20,880 nucleotides of DNA, from positions 1 to 20,880 of the IMG/VR virus record IMGVR_UViG_3300037502_000112, one strand, 5' to 3'. The DNA comes from a virus. The notes under the pieces are model-generated. The model did not search any database, was not told the origin of the DNA, and was given only the letters and a program-made list of their open reading frames with translations. Made by a program: the position numbers and the translations under genes. Shown here in pieces: positions 2,558-17,015 of the stretch (its first letter is position 1; every line of letters starts with the position of its first letter).

Positions 2558-3526
2558 ATGTTTGCACAAGCCCCGTTTTCGGGTGCCCCTTTTGCATCTG
2601 AAGAGGGGGTATTTCAATATGTAGTCACACCGGCTACAGGGACAGTTGTCGTTGCTGGAGTTGCACCAGCCGTTAGGGTTGATACGTTTGTAACTCCAGG
2701 CGTGGGGCAGATTGTTGTTGCTGGGTCTGCTCCAGATGTATTCCAAGCCTTTGCTATTACTCCTGGAGCGGGGAGTCTTACCCTTGCAGGGTTTGCTCCT
2801 ACTATTACTGGCGAGGGCCAGATTGCTCCTGCAACGGGAAATATATCTATACAAGGTCACGCGCCAAGCCTTGAAAGAACATTTGATATTGAAGTTGGTA
2901 CAGGGGCAATCTCTGTACAAGGTAACGCACCTATAATTTCAGAGACTGGACTTGTAAAAACAGTTACTGGAGCAATTAGCACACAAGGTTTTGCGCCAAG
3001 TGTTGTATCTGGAAGTGTTGTTACACCGGATGTAGGATCGCTTGTTATTGTTGGTGAAACGCCGGCAATCCTCAGAGAGACGATTATCTCTCCGACTGGT
3101 GGTTCAGTCATTGTCGGATCCGCTCCAAGCGTAGTAGTTGCAGGTCAGATCACGATACCGGGCACGGGATCATTAGTAGCTACAGGAGCTGCACCTCAGA
3201 TAAACCTTGCAATTATTCCTGGTAGTGGTGCGGCGAACATTCAAGGACAGGTGCCGGACTCTGGGCAATCAATCGTTACAACACCAGCAGGGGCAAACCT
3301 TTCACTTGTAGGGGCTGCCCCGATTACGGCGCTAGGTCGAGATATAGTTCCAGGCACAGGTGCGATAACATCGGCAACAAGCGCACCTGATGTGGTGCAA
3401 AGCGCAGTCATAACACCGGGAACAGCAAACGTAGTAATAGTGACTTTTGCTCCCAAACGGCAGAGTCCAAATTGGGTCGTAATCAACGACGCGCAGAATC
3501 CGAATTGGATACCGATTGCCGCATAG
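2558..3526 (+). CDS. Fibre-like protein made of 13 repeats of about 22 residues
   Basis: This 322-residue protein starts at ATG 2558 behind AAGGGGG (2547-2553). After a short N-terminus (MFAQAPFSGAPF) it consists of about 13 copies of a 21-23-residue unit with the pattern (I/V)TPGxGxxxxxGxAPxv. Early copies are clean, for example ITPGAGSLTLAGFAPTI; later ones such as IIPGSGAANIQGQVP are degenerate. The C-terminus is a non-repetitive cap with two NW motifs (SPNWVVINDAQNPNWIPIAA). Regular Gly/Pro turns alternating with short hydrophobic strands suggest an elongated beta-solenoid or beta-roll stalk. That is inference, as no catalytic motif is visible. Two copies of the same unit close the protein at 16096-16989, which ties the two into one virion substructure or shared lineage. 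The gene opens the fibre cluster. Confidence 0.75.
   Translation: MFAQAPFSGAPFASEEGVFQYVVTPATGTVVVAGVAPAVRVDTFVTPGVGQIVVAGSAPDVFQAFAITPGAGSLTLAGFAPTITGEGQIAPATGNISIQGHAPSLERTFDIEVGTGAISVQGNAPIISETGLVKTVTGAISTQGFAPSVVSGSVVTPDVGSLVIVGETPAILRETIISPTGGSVIVGSAPSVVVAGQITIPGTGSLVATGAAPQINLAIIPGSGAANIQGQVPDSGQSIVTTPAGANLSLVGAAPITALGRDIVPGTGAITSATSAPDVVQSAVITPGTANVVIVTFAPKRQSPNWVVINDAQNPNWIPIAA
2621..3457 (+). repeat. 13 tandem degenerate 63-69-nt coding repeats
   Basis: The repeats are visible only at protein level: PGxG followed by GxAP every 21-23 residues. DNA identity between neighbours is low, so the array is old rather than recently expanded. Confidence 0.7.
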
Positions 3527-3536
3527 AGGATAGATC

Positions 3537-5120
3537 ATGCCACTTGTACTAAAAGACAGAGTTAAAGAGACTACGACAACCACCAGCACGGGCAGTTATA
3601 CGCTCGCTGGGGCGGTCGGTGGATACCAGGCATTCTCCGTCATCGGGAATGGAAATACGACGTACTACGCGGTTACAAATGGGACAGACTGGGAAGTGGG
3701 CATTGGAACCTACACTTTGTCTGGTACTGTACTTAGCCGTGACACAATCTTAGAGTCATCTAATTCAGGCAACGCCGTTAACTGGAGCGCAGGAACTAAG
3801 GAGATCTTCTGTACTTATCCAGCCGAGCGTTCGATGTATGTGGATGGCACGACGATTACGCCAGCTATATCAGCCAGGCTTGGGTTTACTAACCTAGCCC
3901 AAGGTTCTGCGCTTTCTGTTTTAGGGGTTACTGGTAACGCCACTGCGGATAACGCAAGCATAGCTGCTGGTACAGACAACCAAGTTCTTCGTAGGTCTGG
4001 TACATCAGTAGCGTTTGGTGCAGTCAACCTTGCGTCAACAGATGCTGTCACTGGAGATCTTCCATTCTCTAATCTTGCCCAAGGTTCTGCTCTGTCAGTT
4101 CTTGGTGTAACAGGTAACGCAACGGCAGACAACGCCAGTATTGCGGCAGGAACGGATCACCAGGTACTTCGTAGGTCTGGAACGACTGTAGCGTTTGGTG
4201 CGGTTAACCTTGCTCAGTCAGCGGCTGTAACAGGAACCCTTGCAGTAACTAATGGTGGTACTGGCATAACTTCGTTTGGTTCTGGTGTAGCTACATGGCT
4301 AGGAACGCCGTCTTCCGCTAACCTTGCAGCGGCTGTAACAGATGAAACGGGTTCAGGCGCTCTTGTATTTGCTAACACCCCAACCCTAGTCACACCGGTA
4401 CTTGGTGCTGCGACGGGTACTTCGTTAGCGCTTACCGGGGGATCGCTCACCACCCGTCCTGCTGCAACGCAAGATGGTGTCGTGGTAGCCGGTCGTGCAG
4501 GTGGCACATCTACTTATAACGTCACAATTACTCCAACAACGCTTAGTGCAAGCCGGACATTAACTCTGGCTAACGGGGATACAACGCTTCAAGCCGGTAC
4601 GATGGCTGTAACGGGCACGGGGTTAGGGCAGTTCGCTTCTACCACCTCTTCGCAGTTGGCGGGTGTTATTAGTGATGAAACAGGCTCAGGCTCTCTAGTC
4701 TTTGCCACTTCACCTACCCTTGTAACTCCAGTCCTCGGCACCCCCACGTCAGGAACTCTGAGCAACTGTACGGTTGATGGTACGGATGCTGTTGGGTTTA
4801 GGAATACGCCGATCAACTCGCAGTCTGCCGCCTACACCTTGGTGCTTGCTGACGCTGGTAAAACAATCCTGCACCCCATCTCGGACAACAACGCACGGAC
4901 ATTTACAATACCGGCTAACTCAAGCGTGGCGTATCCAGTAGGTACAGTCATTACCTTTGTGAACCTTATCAACACCGTGACGATTGCAATCACTTCTGAC
5001 ACGATGTATTTGGCTGGCCCAGGAACCACGGGGTCACGGACTTTAGCGGCGTATGGGGTTGCAAGTGCAGTTAAGGTGACATCGACCTCCTGGGTTATAT
5101 CTGGCAACGGCCTTACTTAA
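3537..5120 (+). CDS. Tail fibre protein with internal 60-residue duplication
   Basis: This 527-residue protein starts at ATG 3537 with AGAGGAT just upstream. The N-terminal ~100 residues (MPLVLKDRVKETTTTTSTGS, then AVNWSAGTKEIFCTYPAE) match a domain I recall at the virion-proximal end of many phage fibres. Residues 117-167 and 177-227 are near-identical copies (NLAQGSALSVLGVTG..., DNQVLRRSGTSVAFGAVN) set 60 residues apart. Later, DETGSGALVFANTPTLVTPV and DETGSGSLVFATSPTLVTPV form a second repeated fibre motif. The C-terminal ~100 residues (SQSAAYTLVLADAGKTILHP, ending TSWVISGNGLT) form a beta-rich knob seen in other phage fibres. It lacks an S74 chaperone, unlike the second fibre at 10330. 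It probably forms a trimeric receptor-binding or shaft fibre. Confidence 0.82.
   Translation: MPLVLKDRVKETTTTTSTGSYTLAGAVGGYQAFSVIGNGNTTYYAVTNGTDWEVGIGTYTLSGTVLSRDTILESSNSGNAVNWSAGTKEIFCTYPAERSMYVDGTTITPAISARLGFTNLAQGSALSVLGVTGNATADNASIAAGTDNQVLRRSGTSVAFGAVNLASTDAVTGDLPFSNLAQGSALSVLGVTGNATADNASIAAGTDHQVLRRSGTTVAFGAVNLAQSAAVTGTLAVTNGGTGITSFGSGVATWLGTPSSANLAAAVTDETGSGALVFANTPTLVTPVLGAATGTSLALTGGSLTTRPAATQDGVVVAGRAGGTSTYNVTITPTTLSASRTLTLANGDTTLQAGTMAVTGTGLGQFASTTSSQLAGVISDETGSGSLVFATSPTLVTPVLGTPTSGTLSNCTVDGTDAVGFRNTPINSQSAAYTLVLADAGKTILHPISDNNARTFTIPANSSVAYPVGTVITFVNLINTVTIAITSDTMYLAGPGTTGSRTLAAYGVASAVKVTSTSWVISGNGLT
3885..4217 (+). repeat. Tandem 51-residue coding duplication, 180-nt period
   Basis: Copy A spans 3885-4037 and copy B 4065-4217. 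Over the 48 codons I compared from NLAQG to VNLA, 28 differ synonymously and only 2 change the residue (N to H, S to T). The protein copies are conserved while the DNA has diverged widely at third positions. Confidence 0.85.
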
Positions 5121-5128
5121 GGATCAAC

Positions 5129-8100
5129 ATGACCGGGATTCTTAATGCTCTCTTAGGTTTTCTTCGCCCATCAGCGGCGCAGCCTTACACCGTCATCCAG
5201 ACGTTCACCTCTTCGACCACATGGGTCTGCCCTTATGGTGTAACGGAGGTTGAGTATTTGGTTGTTGCTGGTGGGGGTGGTGGAGGGCAGCTAGGTGGCG
5301 GTGGAGGCGGCGCTGGTGGTTTTAGAACTGCTTCTGCATACCCAGTTGTTGCTGGTACGGCGTATACGGTTACAGTCGGTGGAGGTGGTGCCGGTGCTGC
5401 CGCTGCGCCTGTGAGTCCTTATCAGGGTCTACGAGCAACTTCTGGGTCTAATTCAGTCTTTGGTAATTCACCAAATGCTATTACCTCTGCTGGAGGTGGT
5501 GGCGGTGGTTCATACGGTCAACCCACTAATAATAGCCGTGGGGGTAGTGGCGGTAGCGGTGGTGGCGGTGCTATTGATACGTCAACAAATATCGCAGAAA
5601 TTGGCGGGGCCGGTAATACGCCTTCTGTAGCCCCTGCTCCTTCGCAAGGAAATGGCGGGGGCACGTCTTACCGCAATTCTTCTCCAAGTTGGGTATTAGG
5701 TGGTGGTGGTGGTGGTGCTAGTGCTGTTGGGGCGACTTCACCCTCTACCGGCCCTGCTGGTGCAGGTGGTAATGGTACAGCGTCTACTATCTCTGGAACT
5801 TCCGTTACTTATGCTGGTGGCGGTGGTGGCGGTGGTGATCCACGGGCACCAAATACAGCCGGAGGAACTGGAGGTACAGGTGGTGGTGCTAATGGTGGTG
5901 GATCACCAGGCGTTGCAGGTAGCTCAGCACCGGAAAATACCGGCGGTGGTGGCGGTGGCGGCAGTGGTTCGCTTGTTCCTTTGGCATCAGCAGCAGGTGG
6001 CGCAGGCGGCTCTGGCATTGTCATCATCAAATACACGGTCACTCCTGCGACTACGATTGACGTAGTTCAGACCTTTACATCATCTGGCAACTGGACTGCC
6101 CCTGAAGGGGTGACAAGTGTTGAGTACCTTGTGGTTGCTGGTGGGGGTGGGGGGGCTAGGCAACAGGGTGGCGGAGGCGGAGCAGGCGGATTTAGAACTG
6201 GAACTGGACTTTCTGTTACCGCAGGTACTTCATACACTGTAACTGTTGGTGCAGGCGGTGCTGCCGCTACTGGAAATGCGCCCAATAATCAAGGGAGTCC
6301 TGGCGCAAATTCCGTATTTGGAAATGCACCCAGCGCCATTACATCTGCTGGTGGGGGTAACGGGGCTAGTTTTGATACAAATGGCGGGAACGGTGGATCA
6401 GGCGGCGGTGCTGGAGGTTTTTTAACGACACAGGGGCTTGGCGGCTCTGGTAATACTCCCGTTACATCGCCATCTCAGGGAAATAATGGGGGCAATGGTT
6501 TCACATCTGGAAGTCCCAACAATAGACCATCTGGAGGTGGCGGCGGTGCTAGTGCGGTAGGTGGTAATGCAACATCTCCCGCATCTGGCAATGGTGGTAA
6601 TGGAACTGCGTCCACTATATCTGGATCATCTGTCACTTATGCAGGTGGTGGTGGCGGTGGGATGGGATCTAGTGGAGGATCGGCTGGTTCAGGAGGTTCT
6701 GGCGGAGGCGGCGCTGGAGGAAAAGCCCCTGCTGTTGGAAGTGCTGGAACCGCTAACACAGGCGGAGGCGGAGGCGGCGCTGGAGATGACAACATTGCTG
6801 CTGGCGCAGGCGGCTCCGGCATTGTCATTCTCAAGTGGACTCAAGCCTTACAGGTCACAAACACCTTTACATCTTCAGGAACATGGGTAGCCCCACCAGG
6901 GGTCAGCACGGTGGAGTATCTCGTCGTGGCTGGCGGGGGTGGGGGTGGCTATGTCGGTGGTGGTGGAGGTGCTGGTGGATTTAGAACGGGGACAGGTCTT
7001 TCTGTTACCCCAGGTACTTCTTATCCAGTTACTGTTGGTGCCGGTGGTGCGGGTAAAAATTCATCAGTAAAAGCTGATTCTGGAACATCTTCAACATTCA
7101 GCACAATTACTTCTGCGGGGGGCGGTGGCGGTGGTTCTTACATAAATAACCCTTCGGCAGCAGTTGCTACGGGAGCAGATGGAGGTTCTGGTGGTGGCGG
7201 CACTCTTAAAGACGGGCCGGCTGCGTTTGGCCCAGGCGGTACAGGAAATACACCTTCTGTTTCGCCAAGCCAAGGAAACAACGGAGGTTCAGGAATTTAT
7301 GGCCCTACCCTATTTGGTGGCGGAGGTGGCGGTGGCGCATCCGCAGTAGGGCAGTCAGCAAGTGGTTCTCCAGCACGAGGTGGCGGTAACGGCACAGCAT
7401 CCTCTATTTCTGGCACATCAGTAACGTATTCCGGTGGTGGAGGTGGTGGCGGTCATAGTGGGGGTGGAACTACAGGTGGTACAGGCGGTACAGGTGGTGG
7501 TGGAAATGGTGGTAATGCAACTCCAGCCGCTACTGCTGGAGGTAATGGCACAGATAACACAGGTGGTGGTGCTGGTGGAGGCGGTTGGAATGCACCAACG
7601 TCAGCAACTGGTGGCAACGGCGGCTCCGGTATCGTGATCCTTAAATACCTCTCCAAGCCCAATTTCCAAATCTTCCAGGCTACTAGCACATGGGTATGCC
7701 CAACGGGGGTTACTGAAGTTGAGTACCTAGTAGTGGCTGGCGGGGGTGGGGGTGGTTCTGTTTTTGGTGGTGGGGGTGGCGCAGGAGGTTTTAGAACTGG
7801 TACAGCCCAGCCTGTGGTTGCAGGAACTGCTTATACGGTGACTGTTGGTGCAGGTGGTAATGCTGCGCTTGCACGAGGAACACGAGGTTCCGCTGGTACA
7901 AATTCTGTTTTTGGTAATGCTCCGTCTGCAATTACTTCAGCAGGCGGTGGTGGAGGTGGTTCTTATTCCAGTCCTATCGATGCGAATGTGTCTACCGGAC
8001 AGGATGGTGGGTCTGGTGGTGGCGGCACTATAGGATTTACATCACCATCTACATTTACAGCATATTCAGGTGGAGCAGGCAATACCCCAAGTGTTAGTCC

Positions 8101-8500
8101 TGCACCAGCGCAAGGAACAAACGGTGGAGCTGGGAATCTTGGCCCTAGCAATTCTTATGGTTTAGGGGGTGGCGGTGGCGGTGCAGGCGCTACTGGAACT
8201 GGGGCCACAACTACGACTGCTGGTGCGGGTGGTAATGGCACAGCATCTTCTATTTCTGGTACATCTGTAACTTACGCTGGCGGCGGCGGCGGAGGATCTG
8301 ATTCACGTTCTCCTGTAACTACAGGAGGCGCAGGTGGTACAGGCGGCGGCGGTACGGGTGGTAGTGGTGTTAGTCCAGGAAATGCTACGGCTGGCACTGC
8401 TAACACAGGTGGTGGCGGTGGTGGCGGAGCTTTTTTTGCGCCAGCTACAGATGGTGACGGAGGTAACGGCGGCTCCGGTATAGTAATTATTCGTTGGTAA
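5129..8500 (+). CDS. Giant glycine-rich adhesin with four tandem tip-type domains
   Basis: This 1123-residue protein starts at ATG 5129 with AAGGATC overlapping the upstream stop. After about 19 residues it is four units of 261-283 residues. Each opens with a strand like QTFTSSGNWTAPEGV and VEYLVVAGGGGGG, continues with GGFRT and (Y/S)TVTVGAGG, then ITSAGGG, NGTASTISG(T/S)SVTYAGGG and NTGGGGGG, and ends in GGSGIVI(I/L)K(Y/W). This matches the glycine-rich domain used by T-even-like tip adhesins such as phage S16 gp38, where glycine runs pack as polyglycine-II helices and variable loops bind the receptor. Usual adhesins carry one such domain. Four in one chain is unusual. The conserved scaffold with divergent intervening loops suggests receptor binding. 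No enzyme motif is present. Confidence 0.85.
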   Translation: MTGILNALLGFLRPSAAQPYTVIQTFTSSTTWVCPYGVTEVEYLVVAGGGGGGQLGGGGGGAGGFRTASAYPVVAGTAYTVTVGGGGAGAAAAPVSPYQGLRATSGSNSVFGNSPNAITSAGGGGGGSYGQPTNNSRGGSGGSGGGGAIDTSTNIAEIGGAGNTPSVAPAPSQGNGGGTSYRNSSPSWVLGGGGGGASAVGATSPSTGPAGAGGNGTASTISGTSVTYAGGGGGGGDPRAPNTAGGTGGTGGGANGGGSPGVAGSSAPENTGGGGGGGSGSLVPLASAAGGAGGSGIVIIKYTVTPATTIDVVQTFTSSGNWTAPEGVTSVEYLVVAGGGGGARQQGGGGGAGGFRTGTGLSVTAGTSYTVTVGAGGAAATGNAPNNQGSPGANSVFGNAPSAITSAGGGNGASFDTNGGNGGSGGGAGGFLTTQGLGGSGNTPVTSPSQGNNGGNGFTSGSPNNRPSGGGGGASAVGGNATSPASGNGGNGTASTISGSSVTYAGGGGGGMGSSGGSAGSGGSGGGGAGGKAPAVGSAGTANTGGGGGGAGDDNIAAGAGGSGIVILKWTQALQVTNTFTSSGTWVAPPGVSTVEYLVVAGGGGGGYVGGGGGAGGFRTGTGLSVTPGTSYPVTVGAGGAGKNSSVKADSGTSSTFSTITSAGGGGGGSYINNPSAAVATGADGGSGGGGTLKDGPAAFGPGGTGNTPSVSPSQGNNGGSGIYGPTLFGGGGGGGASAVGQSASGSPARGGGNGTASSISGTSVTYSGGGGGGGHSGGGTTGGTGGTGGGGNGGNATPAATAGGNGTDNTGGGAGGGGWNAPTSATGGNGGSGIVILKYLSKPNFQIFQATSTWVCPTGVTEVEYLVVAGGGGGGSVFGGGGGAGGFRTGTAQPVVAGTAYTVTVGAGGNAALARGTRGSAGTNSVFGNAPSAITSAGGGGGGSYSSPIDANVSTGQDGGSGGGGTIGFTSPSTFTAYSGGAGNTPSVSPAPAQGTNGGAGNLGPSNSYGLGGGGGGAGATGTGATTTTAGAGGNGTASSISGTSVTYAGGGGGGSDSRSPVTTGGAGGTGGGGTGGSGVSPGNATAGTANTGGGGGGGAFFAPATDGDGGNGGSGIVIIRW
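5186..6034 (+). repeat. Glycine-rich adhesin unit 1
   Basis: Residues 20-302 of the adhesin. The unit opens with YTVIQTFTSSTTWVCPYGVT and closes with GSGIVIIKY. It is the longest unit and has several long Ser/Asn/Pro-containing loops between glycine runs. Confidence 0.8.
6056..6838 (+). repeat. Glycine-rich adhesin unit 2
   Basis: Residues 310-570. The unit opens with IDVVQTFTSSGNWTAPEGVT and closes with GSGIVILKW. It is the shortest unit, and its loops differ from unit 1 (for example GGFLTTQGLGGSGNTPV). Confidence 0.8.
6854..7648 (+). repeat. Glycine-rich adhesin unit 3
   Basis: Residues 576-840. The unit opens with VTNTFTSSGTWVAPPGVS and closes with GSGIVILKY. Its loops include GTLKDGPAAFGPGG, which has no counterpart in units 1 and 2. 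Confidence 0.8.
7664..8497 (+). repeat. Glycine-rich adhesin unit 4
   Basis: Residues 846-1123. The unit opens with FQIFQATSTWVCPTGVTEVE, closest to unit 1 (WVCPYGVTEVE), and ends the protein with GSGIVIIRW. Units 1 and 4 share the WVCP form, while units 2 and 3 have W(T/V)AP. This suggests a non-random duplication history. Confidence 0.8.
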
Positions 8501-8510
8501 AGGAGAGGGA

Positions 8511-8768
8511 ATGAACACAGCAAAGGTCTTTAGGCTTTACGGAATAAATACAGCGATGGAACTTTTGCGCCCAGGTGCAAAGTGGGAGATCTCAAACCGC
8601 ATCATTACTCGGTGGGATGACCCAAGACCATGCCCGACATGGGAAGAGATTGACGAGACGATGGAAAAGATTCGTCAGTTTGAAGAGTCCATCAACACCA
8701 TCTGGTTGCCAGAAGACTGGGCACGACTTACCGGTCAAGTAGAAGCCTTAGAAAAGGCGGTAGCGTGA
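8511..8768 (+). CDS. Small phage protein after the adhesin, unknown (possible chaperone)
   Basis: This 85-residue protein starts at ATG 8511 behind AAGGAGAGGG. It reads as a compact beta/alpha N-terminus (VFRLYGINTAMELLRPGAKW, IITRWDD) followed by charged helices (TWEEIDETMEKIRQFEE, LTGQVEALEKAVA). I recall this pattern from small proteins directly downstream of tail-fibre genes in many phages, some of which help fibre folding. Size and position fit a chaperone or small tail protein, but there is no firm family assignment. The stop overlaps the GTG start of the first oxygenase gene. Confidence 0.65.
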   Translation: MNTAKVFRLYGINTAMELLRPGAKWEISNRIITRWDDPRPCPTWEEIDETMEKIRQFEESINTIWLPEDWARLTGQVEALEKAVA

Positions 8769-9364
8769 ACATTCACAACCTATTTCCTACCGCATTGGGT
8801 ATGTTCGACCTCGGGCGTGACTTCACCGAGACAGAAATTGCGTTCATCAAGAACCAAGAGAAGCGCAACAACATGGGCAATACCACAAGCGTCGATAACA
8901 CGATTCTGAAGAACCCTGAACTTAAGGGAGTTAAAGAGTTTATCGAGGCGTCTGTTGCCAACTACTTCAAGGCCGTCTACGCCCCCAAGCACGAGACTAC
9001 CCTGCGGATTACGCAGTCCTGGTGCAATTACACCGAGCCGGGTCAGTTCCACCATAAACACGCTCACCCTAATTCATTTATCAGTGGTGTCTTTTACCCC
9101 CAGGCCGACAAAGAGACAGACAAGATCTATTTCTACCGTGACGGGTATCAGCAACTAAAGACCCCTACAGAAGACTTCAACCCGTACAACTCTGAGTCTT
9201 GGTGGATGGAAGCCTACACAGGCCGATTGTTCATTTTCCCGTCGCACCTGACGCATATGGTCGAGACCGTAGAGGGTAAACAGACCCGCATCAGTCTGTC
9301 GTTTAACACCTTCCCTATTGGCAACTTTGGGCAAGACGAATCATTGACGGGGCTGCACCTGTGA
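8765..9364 (+). CDS. 2-oxoglutarate/Fe(II)-dependent oxygenase, TIGR02466-like
   Basis: This 199-residue protein starts at GTG 8765 in a GTGA overlap. The core reads SWCNYTEPGQFHHKHAHPNS at 85-104, then FISGVFYP. It continues with a C-terminal FIFPSHLTHMVE (157-167) and RISLSFN (175-181). This matches the putative 2OG-Fe(II) oxygenase family (Pfam 2OG-FeII_Oxy_5, TIGR02466). Likely iron ligands are His in the H99-x-H101 segment and distal His164, with Arg175 binding the 2-oxoglutarate carboxylate; the ligands are inferred by analogy. The family is common in marine phages and no substrate is established. It is followed directly by a second, unrelated-looking oxygenase. Confidence 0.85.
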   Translation: MNIHNLFPTALGMFDLGRDFTETEIAFIKNQEKRNNMGNTTSVDNTILKNPELKGVKEFIEASVANYFKAVYAPKHETTLRITQSWCNYTEPGQFHHKHAHPNSFISGVFYPQADKETDKIYFYRDGYQQLKTPTEDFNPYNSESWWMEAYTGRLFIFPSHLTHMVETVEGKQTRISLSFNTFPIGNFGQDESLTGLHL

Positions 9365-9933
9365 CGCCGCAGAACCTCCTCGATTACGTCAAGGTGTATG
9401 AGAACCACCTACCTGCGGATCTATGCAAGTCGGCCTCAGAGAACCTAGACAAGATCAACTGGCAGCAGCACACCTTTTATCAAGCAGGGTCTGATTCGTT
9501 TGTCAGTTACGACCACGAACTAGCCATTAGCCATGACGATATTGCAGAGAAGGCCGAGATCAATAAGCAGGTCTGGTTTGCCGTCGAGCGCTATGTCTTA
9601 AAGGACTTCGCTAGTTTTGAGCCTTGGTTCGGTGGTTGGAATGGTTATACCAACATTCGGTTCAATCGGTATGACCCCACTACGCAGATGAAACTGCACT
9701 GTGACCACATTCATTCGATGTTTGATGGTCAGCGAAAAGGCATCCCAACCTTGACGATACTGGGTGCTTTAAACGACGATTACGAAGGCGGTGAGTTGAT
9801 GATGTTTGGTGACCACCGTATTCATCTGCCTGCTGGGGCGGTAGTGGTTTTTCCCAGTAACTTCATGTATCCGCATGAGGTAAAGCCTGTGAAATCGGGC
9901 ATTCGTTATTCATACGTTTCATGGACTTGGTAA
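9361..9933 (+). CDS. 2-oxoglutarate/Fe(II)-dependent oxygenase, prolyl 4-hydroxylase type
   Basis: This 190-residue protein starts at GTG 9361, overlapping the TGA of the previous gene. It has the full facial triad of the prolyl-4-hydroxylase superfamily: HCD at residues 113-115 in MKLHCDHIHSMFDG, then YEGGEL (141-146), distal His172 in YPHEV, and Arg182 in GIRYSYVSW for 2-oxoglutarate. Fold and length fit the catalytic domain alone, with no extra targeting domain. Known relatives hydroxylate proline or other side chains, but phage members in tail clusters have no proven substrate. The intact active-site residues suggest a working enzyme. Candidate substrates include neighbouring fibres or host proteins. 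Confidence 0.88.
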   Translation: MTPQNLLDYVKVYENHLPADLCKSASENLDKINWQQHTFYQAGSDSFVSYDHELAISHDDIAEKAEINKQVWFAVERYVLKDFASFEPWFGGWNGYTNIRFNRYDPTTQMKLHCDHIHSMFDGQRKGIPTLTILGALNDDYEGGELMMFGDHRIHLPAGAVVVFPSNFMYPHEVKPVKSGIRYSYVSWTW

Positions 9934-9938
9934 AGGAG
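9933..9938 (+). promoter_or_regulatory. Strong ribosome binding site selecting a TTG start
   Basis: AAGGAG overlaps the upstream TAA stop and sits 7 nt before TTG 9946. It is the main reason for choosing this rare start codon. Confidence 0.65.
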
Positions 9939-9945
9939 AATTATT

Positions 9946-10326
9946 TTGGCGCACTTTGTGAAACTCGACGAAAACAACGTGGTGACTCAGGTCATCGTGG
10001 TAGCCAACAAAGACACGGCAGACGCTAATGGTGTGGAGAAGGAATACATCGGGGCTGCGTTCTGCGAGAAACTCTTTGGCGGCACATGGAAGCAGACTTC
10101 CTACAACGGCACCATCCGCAAGAACTATGCTGGTATCGGTTACACCTACAACGCCGACATTGATGCGTTTGTACCGCCCAAACCTTTTGCGTCTTGGCTG
10201 CTAAACAATGAGACAGCCCAGTGGGAAGCCCCGGTTCCTATGCCTGAAGGCGGTATGTATTCGTGGGATGAAGACACGGGTTCTTGGATTGAAATGCAGG
10301 TCGCAGGCAACGTAGAAGCGGAGTAA
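9946..10326 (+). CDS. Conserved marine-phage protein, unknown function (TTG start)
   Basis: This 126-residue protein starts at TTG 9946, 7 nt after a strong AAGGAG (9933-9938), and I see no better start. The N-terminus (AHFVKLDENNVVTQVIVVAN, then TSYNGTIRKNYAGIGYTYNA) is a pattern I recall from many cyanophage and other marine-phage hypothetical proteins next to tail fibres. A C-terminal Trp-rich part (SWLLNNETAQWEAP, YSWDEDTGSWIEM) looks like a small beta domain repeating W-x(n)-W. No catalytic residues stand out. Its position before a fibre gene fits a virion surface protein or an assembly helper. Confidence 0.75.
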   Translation: MAHFVKLDENNVVTQVIVVANKDTADANGVEKEYIGAAFCEKLFGGTWKQTSYNGTIRKNYAGIGYTYNADIDAFVPPKPFASWLLNNETAQWEAPVPMPEGGMYSWDEDTGSWIEMQVAGNVEAE

Positions 10327-10329
10327 ATC

Positions 10330-11979
10330 ATGGCAAGTGATTACAGCCCATTAAAGATTGAACTGATTGGAACCGGTGAGCAGGTAGCCACCTGGGGCCA
10401 GACGACAAACACGAACCTAGGCACAGCCATTGAGCAGGCCATAGGTGGCAAAGCAGATGTGACGATGTCGAGCACAACTGAACAGCTCACGCTCACAAAT
10501 ACCAATGCGGCACAAGATGCTCGGGCGCTTTATCTGAACCTTGCGGGCACGCCTGGCGGAGCTGCTGTCCTAGAAGTTCCAGCGGTCCAAAAAGCTTACA
10601 TCGTCAAAAACGGTACGACTGGTGGATTTGCGGTTACGGTCAAGGTAGCTGGCCAGACAGGTGTCTCTGTGCCCAACGGTGCGACGATGCACCTATACAA
10701 CAATGGGACGGACGTAGTAAACGCGGTGACTAATCTTCCTGCTGGAGCAACGATTGGCGGGGCGGCAATCTCCACGGCAGGTGGCACGGTCTCATCTGTT
10801 GCGGCTGGTAATGGGATGAACTTCTCCACGATTACCACGACTGGATCGGTAACTCTTGGAACGCCAAGCACGCTCGACACCACGACAACTAACCTAGTGT
10901 CTGGATCAACTCACACCCACGCGATCACTACAGCGTCTGCAAGTACAGCATCCACGATTGTGGCCAGAGACGGAACAGGTTCTTTTTCAGCATCAACAAT
11001 TTCAATGACCACCGGCAACATTGGTACATTGAACGTTGGCACCCAGACTAACAAAGCAACAATTAACTACACCACCAATGCAGCCAGGACGCTGACAGTA
11101 CCTGCTGTGTCAGGCAACAGAACCTTTGCGTTTCTTGAAGAAGCCCAGACGTTTACGGCCAATCAAACTATTGGTGCCAACTTAGTATTTAGTGGAGATG
11201 CTAGAAGGCTTCAAGCGAAGTTTGATTCGCAAAACGCTAATGGTTTTTTGTTGCAGCACTCAACGCCGACTATGGGAACTTCTTTAGGGGTAATTCCTGG
11301 AGTCTCGTCAATACAAAGTGATACGTCATTAATTCTGTATGGGTCAACAGACCCAGCAAATTGTAGCTATGTATCTCTTTACTCTTCTCCAATTAACGCA
11401 TTTATAGAATCAAATTCTGTTGGTACTGGTGTAACACAAGACTTTGCTATTTATACAGACGGATTTGGTCGCATATTAATTACCGCAACTGGAGAGATTG
11501 GTATTAATGACACTCCAGCGGCAAATGCGTCTCTTAAAACAGTAGCTGCTGGTCGCACGTATTCTTTGCGAGCCGACAATAGAGTGTTGTTTGATGATAC
11601 GTATTCAATTGCGGTAGGCGGCACTAATCGTGCTCTTTATATAGATAACACCGGGCTTGTTGGCACCTTAAGTTCTACCCGTGAGTCGAAGGCTAACATT
11701 GCGCCAATAGCAGACGCAGACTGGTTGATGTCTTTGGAGCCTGTGTCATATAACCGTCGTGAAAGAGCTGAAGACGGTTCCTATACGGGCAAGATCCATG
11801 AAACAGCAGAGTTTGGCCTTATTGCCGAAGACGTTGTTACTGTGCGCCCAGAGATTTGTGCATTTGTTAAGGGTGAAGTTGCTGGCATCAATTACGAACA
11901 GCTTATTGCGCCGATGCTGAAAGAGATTCAGAAGCTCCGTGCAGAGATCAATGCGTTGAAGGAGAAGGTGAATGGATAA
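10330..11979 (+). CDS. Tail fibre/spike with C-terminal S74 self-cleaving chaperone
   Basis: This 549-residue protein starts at ATG 10330 behind GCGGAG (10318-10323). The N-terminal ~150 residues (YSPLKIELIGTGEQVATWGQ, GALYLNL-type strands, IVKNGTTGGFAVTVKV) form a fibre domain I recall from many phages. A Thr/Ser-rich shaft follows. Residues ~290-440 are a distinct, AT-rich module. The last ~100 residues are an S74 intramolecular chaperone: S449-TRES-K454 gives the Ser/Lys spacing expected of the self-cleavage dyad, followed by GLIAEDV (496-502) and a terminal coiled coil (GINYEQLIAPMLKEIQKLRA). Such domains trimerise the fibre and are then cut off, so the mature fibre probably begins at Met1 and ends near residue 448. 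Probably a receptor-binding fibre. Confidence 0.87.
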   Translation: MASDYSPLKIELIGTGEQVATWGQTTNTNLGTAIEQAIGGKADVTMSSTTEQLTLTNTNAAQDARALYLNLAGTPGGAAVLEVPAVQKAYIVKNGTTGGFAVTVKVAGQTGVSVPNGATMHLYNNGTDVVNAVTNLPAGATIGGAAISTAGGTVSSVAAGNGMNFSTITTTGSVTLGTPSTLDTTTTNLVSGSTHTHAITTASASTASTIVARDGTGSFSASTISMTTGNIGTLNVGTQTNKATINYTTNAARTLTVPAVSGNRTFAFLEEAQTFTANQTIGANLVFSGDARRLQAKFDSQNANGFLLQHSTPTMGTSLGVIPGVSSIQSDTSLILYGSTDPANCSYVSLYSSPINAFIESNSVGTGVTQDFAIYTDGFGRILITATGEIGINDTPAANASLKTVAAGRTYSLRADNRVLFDDTYSIAVGGTNRALYIDNTGLVGTLSSTRESKANIAPIADADWLMSLEPVSYNRRERAEDGSYTGKIHETAEFGLIAEDVVTVRPEICAFVKGEVAGINYEQLIAPMLKEIQKLRAEINALKEKVNG

Positions 11980-13861: not shown

Positions 13862-16096
13862 ATGCTTAAAAAGATCGTCCTGCGTCCTGGTATCAATCGT
13901 GACACCACGAACTACGCCAACGAGGGCGGCTATTACGAGTGCGACAAAGTCCGGTTTTACTCTGGATTCCCGCAGAAGATTGGCGGCTGGGTAGAAGCTA
14001 CGACTGAGCGGTTCATTGGAACCTGTCGGCAGCTCTGGAACTGGGTTACTTCGTATTCAGATAACTTTCTGGCGGTTGGTACGGATCAGAAGGTCTACAT
14101 CGAGGTTGGTGGGTTGTTCTACGACATCACGCCTATCCGCAGTCCACTTGCCTCGCCCGATGAAGAGTACACATTTAAGACTCCCACTACAGATAACTGT
14201 ATTGATACGACTAATGGTTCAACCACAGTCAATATCAACATCACGGCGCATGGATGCCTAGTTGGTGACTACATCACGATTGCCGGTGCGACTGACGTAG
14301 GCGGTATACCCAGTGCCATATTGAACGCCGAGCACACTGTAACATCTGTTACAGATAACAATAACTTTAAGATTACCGTATCGACTGCGGCAACATCTAC
14401 AGTGACCGGCGGAGGTGGTACAGCGATTTTTGTTGGGTGTCAGATCCACCCAGGTTTTGCGCTTCAAACGGCAGGTTATGGATGGGGGACGGGTGGCTTT
14501 GGTGGAACAACCGGGCTTTCAACCCCTCCGTCGATATTTACAGTGACCATCGCTTCTCCAGCGGTTCTTACGTTTGCGGCTTACACCCCCGTTGACAACA
14601 CAGTCATTCTTTTAAGTACAACCGGTGCTCTTCCAACAGGGTTGTCTGCTGGTGTGGCGTATTACGTGGTTGGAGCCTCTGGTAACACGTGTAACCTGGC
14701 ACCAATTCTGCCTAATGGATCTGCTGGTGCAGTCATCAATACTACGGGCACACAGAGTGGCACGCATAGTGCACAACTCGTAGCGTCTCCTACTGGATGG
14801 GGATTGGCCAGCCCGGTGCCGGTAAACCTCCCGCAGCGCGACTGGTTCTTTGATAACTTTGACAATGACCTGGTGATGAACATCCGGGCCATTACCACGG
14901 GATCTGGTATTGCAACTGGTGGGCCGATCTACTACTGGGTGCGAGACACGGCAACAAACCCGCAGGCGTCACTCAATACTCGGGCGGTTCTTCTTTCTGG
15001 ACTGACAATTGATGGCGTGGCCCCGGCAGACGTTCCCGATGCAGCCTATCAAATCCTCGTATCTCAAAACGACAAACACCTTCTTGCGTTTGGGTGCCAG
15101 CCATACGCTGGGTCTGTTGGTGACTTTGACCCGCTTCTGATTCGTTGGGCTACGCAGGACCAGCCAAACGTTTGGACGCCGCTGCTGACAAACTCCGCTG
15201 GATTTATACGTGTGTCCCGTGGATCAAGGATTGTCCGGGCGCTGCCGACCAAGCAAGAGATTGTGGTCTTCACGGATACACACCTGTACAGCTTTCAGTT
15301 CCTAGGCACTATTGAGGTATTTGGTCTCCAGGAGCTGGCCGACAACATTTCAATCATGTCGCCACGGGCTTGTATCTCCGTGAACAACGTGACGTATTGG
15401 ATGGGATTAGATAAGTTCTATGCCTATGATGGCCGGGTACAGACGCTGCCTTGTACGCTGCGGGAGTATGTCTTCAAAGACATCAACTTTAACCAGGCCG
15501 ATCAGGTAATCTGCGGAACGAACGAGGGTTACAACGAAGTCTGGTGGTTCTATTGCAGCGCCAACTCCAACTGGATTGACCGGTATGTAATCTATAACCA
15601 CCTGGATCGGATCTGGTATTACGGCAACCTGACTCGCACGGCCTGGCTCGATGTGTCTTCCAGGGACTTCCCCACGGCAGTATCTACGGATCAAAACCAG
15701 AACCCAGGCATCCTCTATACCCATGAGGTAGGAGTGAATGACAATACACTGCCGCTAGAAGCCTACATCCAGTCATCAGACTTTGACATCGAAGATGGCG
15801 ACAAGCTGATGCTGACTAAGCGGGTGATTCCTGACGTGAACTTCAACGGTTCCACAGCCAACGATCCTGAAGTAACTATGGCCGTGCGGTCCCGTAATTT
15901 CCCTGGTTCAGTGTTTACCAACAACGCTTTGAACGAGAAGCCGGTTATTCAGACCACGATAGACCAGTACACGGAGCAGGTATTCATTCGTACTAGGGGA
16001 CGCCAGATGGCCATACGGATCAGCTCCGACGGGCTTGGGGTGCAGTGGCAGCTCGGTGCTCCTAGGTTGGACGCGCAGCCAGACGGCAAACGGTAA
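13862..16096 (+). CDS. Probable tail nozzle/hub protein (P22 gp10 or T7 gp12-like role)
   Basis: This 744-residue protein starts at ATG 13862, 2 nt after the upstream stop, without a strong binding site. The N-terminus (KIVLRPGINRDTTNYANEGG, CDKVRFYSGFPQKIGGWVE) is a hallmark I recall from short-tailed phage tail proteins annotated as packaged-DNA stabilisation or nozzle-type. Many short beta segments with W/Y-G turns (LWNWVTSYSDNFLAVGTDQK, WFYCSANSNWIDRYVIYNHL) suggest a beta-propeller, as in P22 gp10 and T7 gp12. Two extra beta domains appear inserted at about residues 109-190 (TAHGCLVGDYITIAGATDVG) and 223-309 (GALPTGLSAGVAYYVVGASG). The protein would cap the neck and gate DNA exit. It ends in a TAATG overlap. 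Confidence 0.75.
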   Translation: MLKKIVLRPGINRDTTNYANEGGYYECDKVRFYSGFPQKIGGWVEATTERFIGTCRQLWNWVTSYSDNFLAVGTDQKVYIEVGGLFYDITPIRSPLASPDEEYTFKTPTTDNCIDTTNGSTTVNINITAHGCLVGDYITIAGATDVGGIPSAILNAEHTVTSVTDNNNFKITVSTAATSTVTGGGGTAIFVGCQIHPGFALQTAGYGWGTGGFGGTTGLSTPPSIFTVTIASPAVLTFAAYTPVDNTVILLSTTGALPTGLSAGVAYYVVGASGNTCNLAPILPNGSAGAVINTTGTQSGTHSAQLVASPTGWGLASPVPVNLPQRDWFFDNFDNDLVMNIRAITTGSGIATGGPIYYWVRDTATNPQASLNTRAVLLSGLTIDGVAPADVPDAAYQILVSQNDKHLLAFGCQPYAGSVGDFDPLLIRWATQDQPNVWTPLLTNSAGFIRVSRGSRIVRALPTKQEIVVFTDTHLYSFQFLGTIEVFGLQELADNISIMSPRACISVNNVTYWMGLDKFYAYDGRVQTLPCTLREYVFKDINFNQADQVICGTNEGYNEVWWFYCSANSNWIDRYVIYNHLDRIWYYGNLTRTAWLDVSSRDFPTAVSTDQNQNPGILYTHEVGVNDNTLPLEAYIQSSDFDIEDGDKLMLTKRVIPDVNFNGSTANDPEVTMAVRSRNFPGSVFTNNALNEKPVIQTTIDQYTEQVFIRTRGRQMAIRISSDGLGVQWQLGAPRLDAQPDGKR
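14337..14354. repeat. Perfect 7-bp inverted repeat with 4-nt loop
   Basis: CTGTAAC (14337-14343) and GTTACAG (14348-14354) flank ATCT. It matches the element at 970-989 in both arms and loop length. It lies within coding sequence for T-V-T-S-V-T-D. Confidence 0.5.
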
Positions 16097-16989
16097 TGGC
16101 CCTCATAGGATTTCGCGCACCAGCACTTCCTCTGCCACGGGAGCAGTATGACCGTCAGCAGATGGATCAGTTAATCAATGCTTTGCGTTTGTACTTCAAC
16201 CAGTTAGATTCGCTTACCCCTCAGCAGGCCAACTCTTACCGGGCTGATGAGTTTATTGGTGGAGACTTTACCGGGGATGACTACACTGGGGATCTTTTTA
16301 CTGGCAACACGTTTAATGGCGGGGTGTTTAATGGCAGCTATTTCAACGGTGGCCATTTTAGCGGGCAACAATTTGTAGGCGGCACGTTTGTTGGGCAAGG
16401 GAACAGGATTGTTCTCCCGCACATAGCGGCTTCAGACTCGACAGACCAGATTGCTGGCGGCGATAACACGCCTACGGTTGTAGAGTGGAACACACTGGAT
16501 TCTGGGTTTGGTTGGACACTTAACGCGCCTGGATCGGCAACGGCTGATTATGCTGGGGTGTATAAGATTACCTACAGCCTACAGTTTATTAATACGGCCA
16601 ATGACGTTCACTACGCTACGGTTTGGATAAAAGTTAACGGTGTTGATGTAGCAAACTCGGCTACGATCTTTACAATTCCAGCCCGAAAAAGTGCCAGCCC
16701 TGGTGATGAAGGGTTTAATGCCGCCTATTCAGAAGCCACATTTAGTATGCAAGTGGGTGATGAGGTTGAGCTTTACTGGGCTACTGACCTGGCGTACAAC
16801 TCCACTGGCCCAATAGATGGGGTGTATATATTCCACGATGGACCGCAGGTGTCTCCTTTTGCAAGACCGGCGATACCGTCTGCAATAGGTTCAATTGAGT
16901 TCTTATCGGCTTTGCCAGATGTAACAGTCAAACCGAGCATTGATACTTTGGTGATTTCTGGAGCAGCTCCGACGGTGACCGTAGCCTAG
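16096..16989 (+). CDS. Fibre-like protein: period-5 aromatic helix, C1q-like domain, repeat tail
   Basis: This 297-residue protein starts at ATG 16096 in a one-base TAATG overlap. Residues 1-50 (MALIGFRAPALPLP, then DQLINALRLYFNQLDSLTPQ) are a conserved phage N-terminus with a helix likely to trimerise. Residues 53-100 have an aromatic residue every fifth position without exception (53, 58, 63 ... 98) in a FxGxx pattern, resembling a pentapeptide-repeat beta-helix but with Gly two places after the aromatic. Residues ~105-255 read as a C1q/TNF-like jelly roll (GVYKITYSLQFINTANDVHY, FSMQVGDEVELYWATD). The last ~36 residues hold two copies of the unit that builds the 2558-3526 protein. Probably a short trimeric fibre or tail appendage. 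Confidence 0.78.
   Translation: MALIGFRAPALPLPREQYDRQQMDQLINALRLYFNQLDSLTPQQANSYRADEFIGGDFTGDDYTGDLFTGNTFNGGVFNGSYFNGGHFSGQQFVGGTFVGQGNRIVLPHIAASDSTDQIAGGDNTPTVVEWNTLDSGFGWTLNAPGSATADYAGVYKITYSLQFINTANDVHYATVWIKVNGVDVANSATIFTIPARKSASPGDEGFNAAYSEATFSMQVGDEVELYWATDLAYNSTGPIDGVYIFHDGPQVSPFARPAIPSAIGSIEFLSALPDVTVKPSIDTLVISGAAPTVTVA
16252..16395 (+). repeat. Ten period-5 aromatic coding repeats (FxGxx)
   Basis: The aromatic residue is Phe in nine units and Tyr in one (residue 63). Gly falls two residues later in every unit. Tyr48 may be an eleventh, N-terminal unit. Confidence 0.8.
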
Positions 16990-17015
16990 TCAATGGCTAA
17001 TAAATCGCGGATAAT
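16987..17015 (+). promoter_or_regulatory. Candidate sigma70-like promoter before the ejection-type genes
   Basis: GATAAT at 17010-17015 matches TATAAT in five of six positions. TAGTCA at 16987-16992, 17 nt upstream, matches TTGACA in four of six. It lies in the largest gap of the window, between the fibre-like gene and the gene at 17045. The match is modest and could be chance. Confidence 0.3.

Follow-up and report, generated by a model that had tools for sequence, protein, structure and literature searches.

A four-unit glycine-rich phage protein, a probable adhesin, and the apparent exchange of its single units between relatives

Introduction

The window analysed here, a stretch of 20,880 bases of virus DNA (positions 1 to 20,880 of IMG/VR virus record IMGVR_UViG_3300037502_000112), contains an open reading frame (ORF) for a probable adhesin made up of four consecutive glycine-rich units. 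Among described systems, the fibre protein gp24 of cyanophage Pam3 (PDB 7ypx, 7yfw) is the best-documented fold match, end to end over the unit. This protein is a trimer whose TNF-like domain leads into a glycine-rich lattice of 12 motifs; the stem is conserved, and the hypervariable tip is the proposed site of receptor binding (PMC9608196). The gp38 adhesins of phage PP01 and Salmonella phage S16 have one polyglycine-II domain with receptor loops, and the loops of PP01 gp38, which sit on the polyglycine-II lattice, are located against OmpC by cross-links (PMC12892980). The HTVC023P type of phage is described in its genome paper as short-tailed (Podoviridae); adjoining 2OG oxygenases are mentioned there, and the main text contains none of the terms tail fiber, receptor, adhesin, hypervariable or glycine-rich (PMC9599517). 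In marine phages, the contents listed for under-recruiting islands include host-recognition genes, Fe(II)-dependent oxygenases and 'gp38' adhesins (PMC3909814).

The unit itself is filed as PF21722 (Gly_rich_2) in Pfam, as PHROG 2295 and as 'Glycine-rich domain-containing protein' in UniProt, and the Pfam and PHROG entries assign it no function. Among the papers that the literature searches listed, none described fused multi-unit adhesins of this kind in its title or abstract opening. We report that the window protein is likely to be a host-recognition adhesin whose units would act as independent heads with variable loops, mounted on a shaft and exchanged one at a time. Single-unit exchange in such chains, together with the linked anchor peptide, shaft end and 85-amino-acid (85-aa) partner, was not found described.

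Four complete units in one reading frame

PF21722 matched the adhesin in four stretches (E 1.6e-95; 319.8 bits against a curated cut-off of 24.3), far beyond chance, and the PHROG 2295 model, which has 1183 positions, also matched it in four stretches. VEYLVVAGGGG stands at residues 41, 331, 595 and 864, GGFRT at 63, 353, 616 and 886, NGTAS.ISG at 215, 491, 754 and 1036, NTGGG at 270, 543, 810 and 1092, and GSGIVI at 294, 562, 832 and 1115. The four complete units that the initial annotation had read in a single ORF are confirmed by the agreement of coordinates, protein length, landmarks and Pfam matches (Table 1), and the landmark set ascribed to every unit is present in all four, save that unit 3 has VTYSGG for the SVTYAGG-type landmark. 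The W-motif reads WVCP, WTAP, WVAP and WVCP from unit 1 to unit 4. Aligned unit lengths are 283, 260, 266 and 279 residues, the linkers are short, and identity to unit 1 is 59% for unit 2, 63% for unit 3 and 68% for unit 4. Tandem Repeats Finder covers periods of up to 500 bases only, so that the unit repeat of about 800 bases is not visible to it. The ORF is a real, well-formed four-unit protein and a larger member of a known, functionally unassigned glycine-rich family.

An assembly artefact is unlikely, as closed four-unit ORFs are also held by two separate contigs, L317 and L237. In the related locus L004 four unit starts lie in an ORF that runs off the contig end, and L005 has three units and the tail of a fourth. 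Off-register DNA matches between the window and L004 units were mostly 64-69% identical, which marks the window units as old copies.

Table 1. Features of the adhesin locus in the window
Feature	Position	Strand	Basis or remark
Fibre-shaft-like gene, 527 aa	3537..5120	+	phrog_6002 virion structural, E 4.3e-10, residues 289-422
Four-unit glycine-rich adhesin	5129..8500	+	1123 aa from ATG; phrog_2295, E 2.4e-205; PF21722 four times
N-terminal peptide MTGILNALLGFLRP, putative shaft-docking peptide	5129..5170	+	pattern M[STG]G[I/L/V]..LL
Unit 1	5189..6031	+	landmarks, alignment
Unit 2	6059..6835	+	alignment; AlphaFold2 pLDDT 95.4, pTM 0.92
Unit 3	6851..7645	+	alignment; modelled jointly with unit 2, pLDDT 94.0, pTM 0.67
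Unit 4	7658..8494	+	landmarks, alignment
Replaced segment of unit 4 relative to L004/L005, ends approximate	7760..8470	+	DNA identity
85-aa conserved gene, putative assembly partner/chaperone of multi-unit adhesins	8511..8768	+	phrog_21526
2OG-Fe(II) oxygenase, commonly next in line	8765..9364	+	PF13759
Second 2OG-Fe(II) oxygenase	9361..9933	+	PF13640

A conserved scaffold carries hypervariable loops

The scaffold was taken as 136 alignment columns, 73 of them glycine, set from 66 units that do not belong to the window's clade. Pairs of window units were identical at 119-126 of the 136 scaffold columns, compared with 29-51 of 113-137 loop columns. Among 71 units, each of nine loop segments had 69-71 distinct sequences; three more segments on the list, insertions or ends, occur in few distinct forms. 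The results showed that the loops differ between units and that variation is concentrated there, as had been proposed, and that one chain carries several different loop surfaces. The conserved stem and hypervariable tip described for Pam3 gp24 fit this pattern.

The AlphaFold2 model of unit 2, built with 71 units, matched the Bxb1 tail-tip chain 9d93_Qb (Z 16.4, 186 residues, 3.1 Å) and the Pam3 fibre 7ypx (Z 15.7, 178 residues, 2.4 Å); the next-best solved matches were the glycine-rich domains of ALK and LTK (Z 6.6-8.0). The unit 3 model likewise matched the Pam3 fibre (Z 16.4, 183 residues, 2.5 Å), and in the joint model both units match solved glycine-rich domains. Foldseek alone gave low TM-scores (0.41-0.47) to the Pam3 and Bxb1 phage chains. 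The beta-rich TNF-like base and the glycine-rich lattice of the Pam3 gp24 fibre are both present in the predicted models of units 2 and 3. A glycine-rich fold like that expected by the initial annotation was predicted, its nearest solved counterparts being in Pam3 and Bxb1; the S16 gp38 structure 6F45 was absent from the match lists, which by itself proves nothing. Judged by the structural matches of the predicted models, the units may have a polyglycine-II lattice, and the predicted fold class is already known. In BFVD, 241 predicted viral structures matched the unit fold at E<=0.001; among the best 50 of these, most are named 'Glycine-rich domain-containing protein' and some measure 800-1477 aa, so that long members, whatever their unit number, have already been deposited. 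Searched against PDB sequences, the whole adhesin gave chance-level matches only (phmmer), and a unit profile found no relative, with 13 chance-level fibronectin/monobody matches.

The adhesin had been described as of the S16 gp38 kind, and this was not supported. Neither PF05268 nor PF21721 matched it at E<=1 and the hhalign probability was 1.9%; S16 gp38 itself matched the two families with E 4e-73 and 1.1e-19. S16 gp38 is ruled out by sequence as a homologue and is an analogue with no detectable relationship to the window adhesin. The gp38 proteins of S16 and PP01 differ from it in Pfam family, in having a single glycine-rich domain and in the N-terminus. Like the S16-type gp38 gene, the adhesin gene lies directly 3′ of a shaft gene, the shaft-like ORF stopping 8 bases before its ATG. 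Pam3 gp24 is a one-unit trimer with its own helical baseplate-docking domain and a two-domain chaperone, gp25, whereas the window chain has four units. As regards a Pam3-type helical N-terminal anchor and Tfa-like chaperone, about 20 residues stand before unit 1 of the window adhesin, and its 85-aa neighbour had no Pfam match (E<=1).

Single units appear to be exchanged between relatives

Relatives were compared in a sample of 395 non-redundant unit ORFs from fetched records, 326 complete and 69 truncated, with unit limits set by a start-region profile. The loci were picked by searches for relatives, by a start-motif pattern and by junction patterns, the last of which favour fused forms; counts given here refer to this motif-selected sample, among the matches listed, and are not frequencies.

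Units 1-3 of the window are 93-99% identical to those of L004 and L005 (for unit 1, in L004 alone). In unit 4 the window carries another allele, which spans the stretch between VEYLVVAGGGGGG and GSGIVI; the fourth unit of L004 is cut by the contig end. Compared with L005, unit 4 was identical at 126 of 136 scaffold columns and at 36 of 118 loop columns, and gaps fell in 31 loop columns. In 150-column DNA blocks, identity to L005 was 45-63% over the replaced segment (Table 1), 94-100% over units 2-3 and 87-99% over 8589-10388.

The same pattern was seen elsewhere in the sample. At least 88% identity in one unit was shared by 27 ORF pairs, and 20 of them had another unit below 75%; without two truncation artefacts (L004/L005 and L198/L204) the count was 18 of 25 pairs, some of which share members and are not independent. 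The identity profiles of many close pairs showed sharp steps near unit boundaries, with the first or the last unit differing. Among two-unit pairs, L195/L248, L180/L190, L295/L298 and L073/L325 keep their last unit and diverge in the first; the reverse holds for L234/L310, L281/L324 and L216/L225. Single units thus appear to be exchanged as cassettes between relatives, a pattern that suggests recombination.

Shaft end, N-terminal peptide and 85-aa gene are linked to the adhesin

About 105 aa at the C-terminus of the shaft form a 'tip-like' domain; in at least 35 cases, the window included, the ORF immediately preceding a unit ORF ends in this domain. The sample held 105 tip-like ORFs, and 59 small-gene loci were classed as shaft-paired. 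The pattern of the N-terminal peptide (Table 1) was found in 24 of 39 shaft-paired unit ORFs versus 0 of 158 other unit ORFs with a short N-terminus, and in 1 of 8 that have no ORF upstream. Of the 15 shaft-paired ORFs missed, several seem to have the peptide clipped by the unit boundary used; the others lack it.

A homologue of the 85-aa gene lies directly behind 132 of 179 multi-unit ORFs versus 2 of 149 single-unit ORFs; among the 30 matches listed, it begins 11-29 bases behind a two-unit ORF. Its product had no NCBIfam match at E<=0.1, in addition to the lack of a Pfam match. The gene linkage makes the 85-aa protein a candidate for a dedicated chaperone or connector. Small proteins of this sort can serve as tail chaperones beyond the example of Pam3.

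Growth in unit number was in-chain in 10 shaft loci and tandem in none; in loci without a shaft it was in-chain in 2 and tandem in 13 (Fisher 2e-5). Because the 85-aa gene tree is weakly resolved and the split involves only about four changes of each label on it, and because the four-unit ORF of L237 has neither a recognised shaft nor the peptide, we put it forward tentatively; it may reflect descent.

A 180-base repeat lies inside the shaft gene (3889-4213, 1.8 copies). In L004 the open frame of the shaft is 111 residues shorter (417 versus 528), so that the length of the shaft may change with the number of repeats. In L237 and in L228 and L208, two further N-terminal classes were noticed: a second short one, near MPVLSxLAxATAKAYG, in unit ORFs without the recognised shaft, and a third, '..GIWTLxQA...GxWP', seen also in tandem two-plus-two loci.

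Proposed role of the units and alternative explanations

The window adhesin would serve host recognition in a phage related to the Pelagibacter phage HTVC023P. Each unit is predicted to be an independently folded head, in which a small beta-rich base is combined with a glycine-rich lattice ending in about nine hypervariable loops, and these loops would touch the receptor. Gene linkage suggests that an N-terminal peptide of about 14 residues probably fixes the chain to the tip of the upstream-encoded shaft, and that assembly of the chain is probably aided by the downstream-encoded 85-aa protein. The conserved scaffold would provide a common frame in which homologous recombination could swap one whole unit and leave its neighbours unchanged, so that the phage would display several different binding surfaces per chain, renewable singly. 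Receptor binding, avidity and several specificities are inferred.

Homologues with one, two, three and four units, which the initial annotation had proposed to look for, do exist: 145, 160, 18 and 3 of the 326 complete ORFs, and 35, 29, 3 and 2 of the 69 truncated ones. Multi-unit forms are not unique to the window, its four fused units are the highest number in the sample, and no five-unit ORF was seen among the 395. The pairing of units 1 and 4 against 2 and 3 had been taken as a hint of stepwise duplication within the adhesin gene; units 1 and 4 do share WVCP and group in smaller samples with non-starred support of 84-91 (84 and 91), and neither a clade of units 2 and 3, although absent from the best tree (p-AU 0.44), nor a clade of all four (p-AU 0.29) was rejected. 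In the larger sample, however, the nearest units of units 4 and 2, apart from the near-identical alleles in L004 and L005, are found in other phages: unit 4 is 66.9% identical to a unit in L266 compared with 64.3% to unit 1 (support 90, not starred), and unit 2 is 70.6% identical to a unit in L169 (starred, 95-99), compared with 59% to unit 3. Moreover, units of two-unit proteins from different phages cluster according to whether they stand first or last (14 changes versus 35.4 when shuffled), suggesting that unit lineages predate these genes, and units 3 and 4 of L317 pair with units 2 and 1 of L205. Stepwise duplication therefore seems quite improbable to us, and exchange from a shared pool would explain the unit relationships better than fresh duplication, although the clade tests do not reject the latter.

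If one unit only, for example the terminal one, bound the receptor and the others were spacers making the fibre tip longer or loose binders of surface polysaccharide, loop diversity would be drift tolerated by the scaffold. The comparison with L004 and L005, in which only the terminal unit is replaced and units 1-3 are kept, would agree with this, but some two-unit pairs change the first unit and keep the last while others do the reverse, and each of the four window units combines a kept scaffold with hypervariable loops, which makes a single binder unlikely. The units of one chain might instead pack together like the Pam3 trimer (PMC9608196), so that a multi-unit chain replaces an oligomer and adds no specificities. 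Short linkers would suit such packing; yet two-unit chains far outnumber three-unit chains (160 versus 18 closed ORFs) and the unit sequences within the window chain differ strongly, and we give this arrangement very little chance.

Several observations weigh against independent, singly exchanged heads. Between the window and L004, residues 1-862 show 27 nonsynonymous and 91 synonymous codon differences and the loops of units 1-3 are kept, implying that the loops are not changing fast by point mutation. Unit 4 is not the only divergent patch relative to L005: 13122-13375 is at 35-46% identity, there is an insertion (about 0.8 kb) near 10389, and blastn gave no match to L005 for 16263-17001. 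The pTM of the two-unit model (Table 1) means that the relative placement of the units is not fixed by the model. The linkages of shaft peptide and 85-aa gene are confounded by common descent, and PF21722 had no match in four of seven related phages (HTVC027P, CRP-902 and two Manatee Spring phages).

The exchange of independent heads could be part of a wider modular system, in which two to four exchangeable heads on one chain, each of separate specificity and traded singly by way of the common scaffold, are borne by a constant set of shaft, docking peptide and 85-aa partner, with in-chain growth where the shaft has a single docking site and added genes elsewhere. We regard this extension as possible but rather doubtful. 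If it is true, host range could shift without loss of existing receptors. Phages must keep pace with changing receptors, and singly exchanged heads would let a phage sample new ones with its remaining heads still functional; how multivalent recognition evolves could then be tested directly for each unit. The 85-aa gene and the N-terminal peptide would be concrete, unannotated candidates for the building and mounting of such arrays.

As separate observations, six heads per locus occur in L142 and L167, each with two three-unit genes (side by side in L142, separated by about 900 bases in L167), and in L144, with three neighbouring two-unit genes (2+2+2).

Related phages and genomic surroundings

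A 744-aa protein of the window (13862-16096) matched proteins of the Pelagibacter phages HTVC023P and HTVC027P, of 023Pt_psg01, DSL-LC04 and the Roseobacter phages CRP-901 and CRP-902 at 28-36% identity, and the same six phages are among the 15 records matching the protein at 137-793. The DSL-LC04 homologue of the 744-aa protein is annotated as 'stabilization protein', which we take to be P22-like. A PF21722 search of seven related phage records gave matches in three. HTVC023P has four consecutive one-unit genes, gp59-gp62, and one more, gp70; 023Pt_psg01 has three one-unit genes in a row, and in DSL-LC04 two units are fused in a single gene. In HTVC023P and 023Pt_psg01 the units lie in the same structural-gene module as in the window and are of the same kind, but each gene has one unit behind an N-terminal part, that of gp59 matching tail-fibre and tail-spike PHROGs. 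This distribution suggests that the same kind of head is used in varying number and fusion state within one gene module. A tblastn search of the named phages with the adhesin found nothing, a false negative probably caused by the low-complexity filter, given the PF21722 matches, and megablast of the window against these phages gave no match.

In 99 of 118 small-gene loci, a homologue of either window oxygenase (Table 1) follows at no more than 700 bases. The pair, 3′ of the adhesin module, recurs in relatives; hydroxylation of protein or glycan would be speculation. Further upstream, two phrog_644 genes of unassigned function (790-1206 and 2074-2541) flank a 288-aa ORF (1206-2072). Degenerate repeats of about 20 residues, 'TGxxxVxGxAPxV', were recognised by eye in the protein at 2558-3526, which has no PHROG match, and in the C-terminus of that at 16096-16989.

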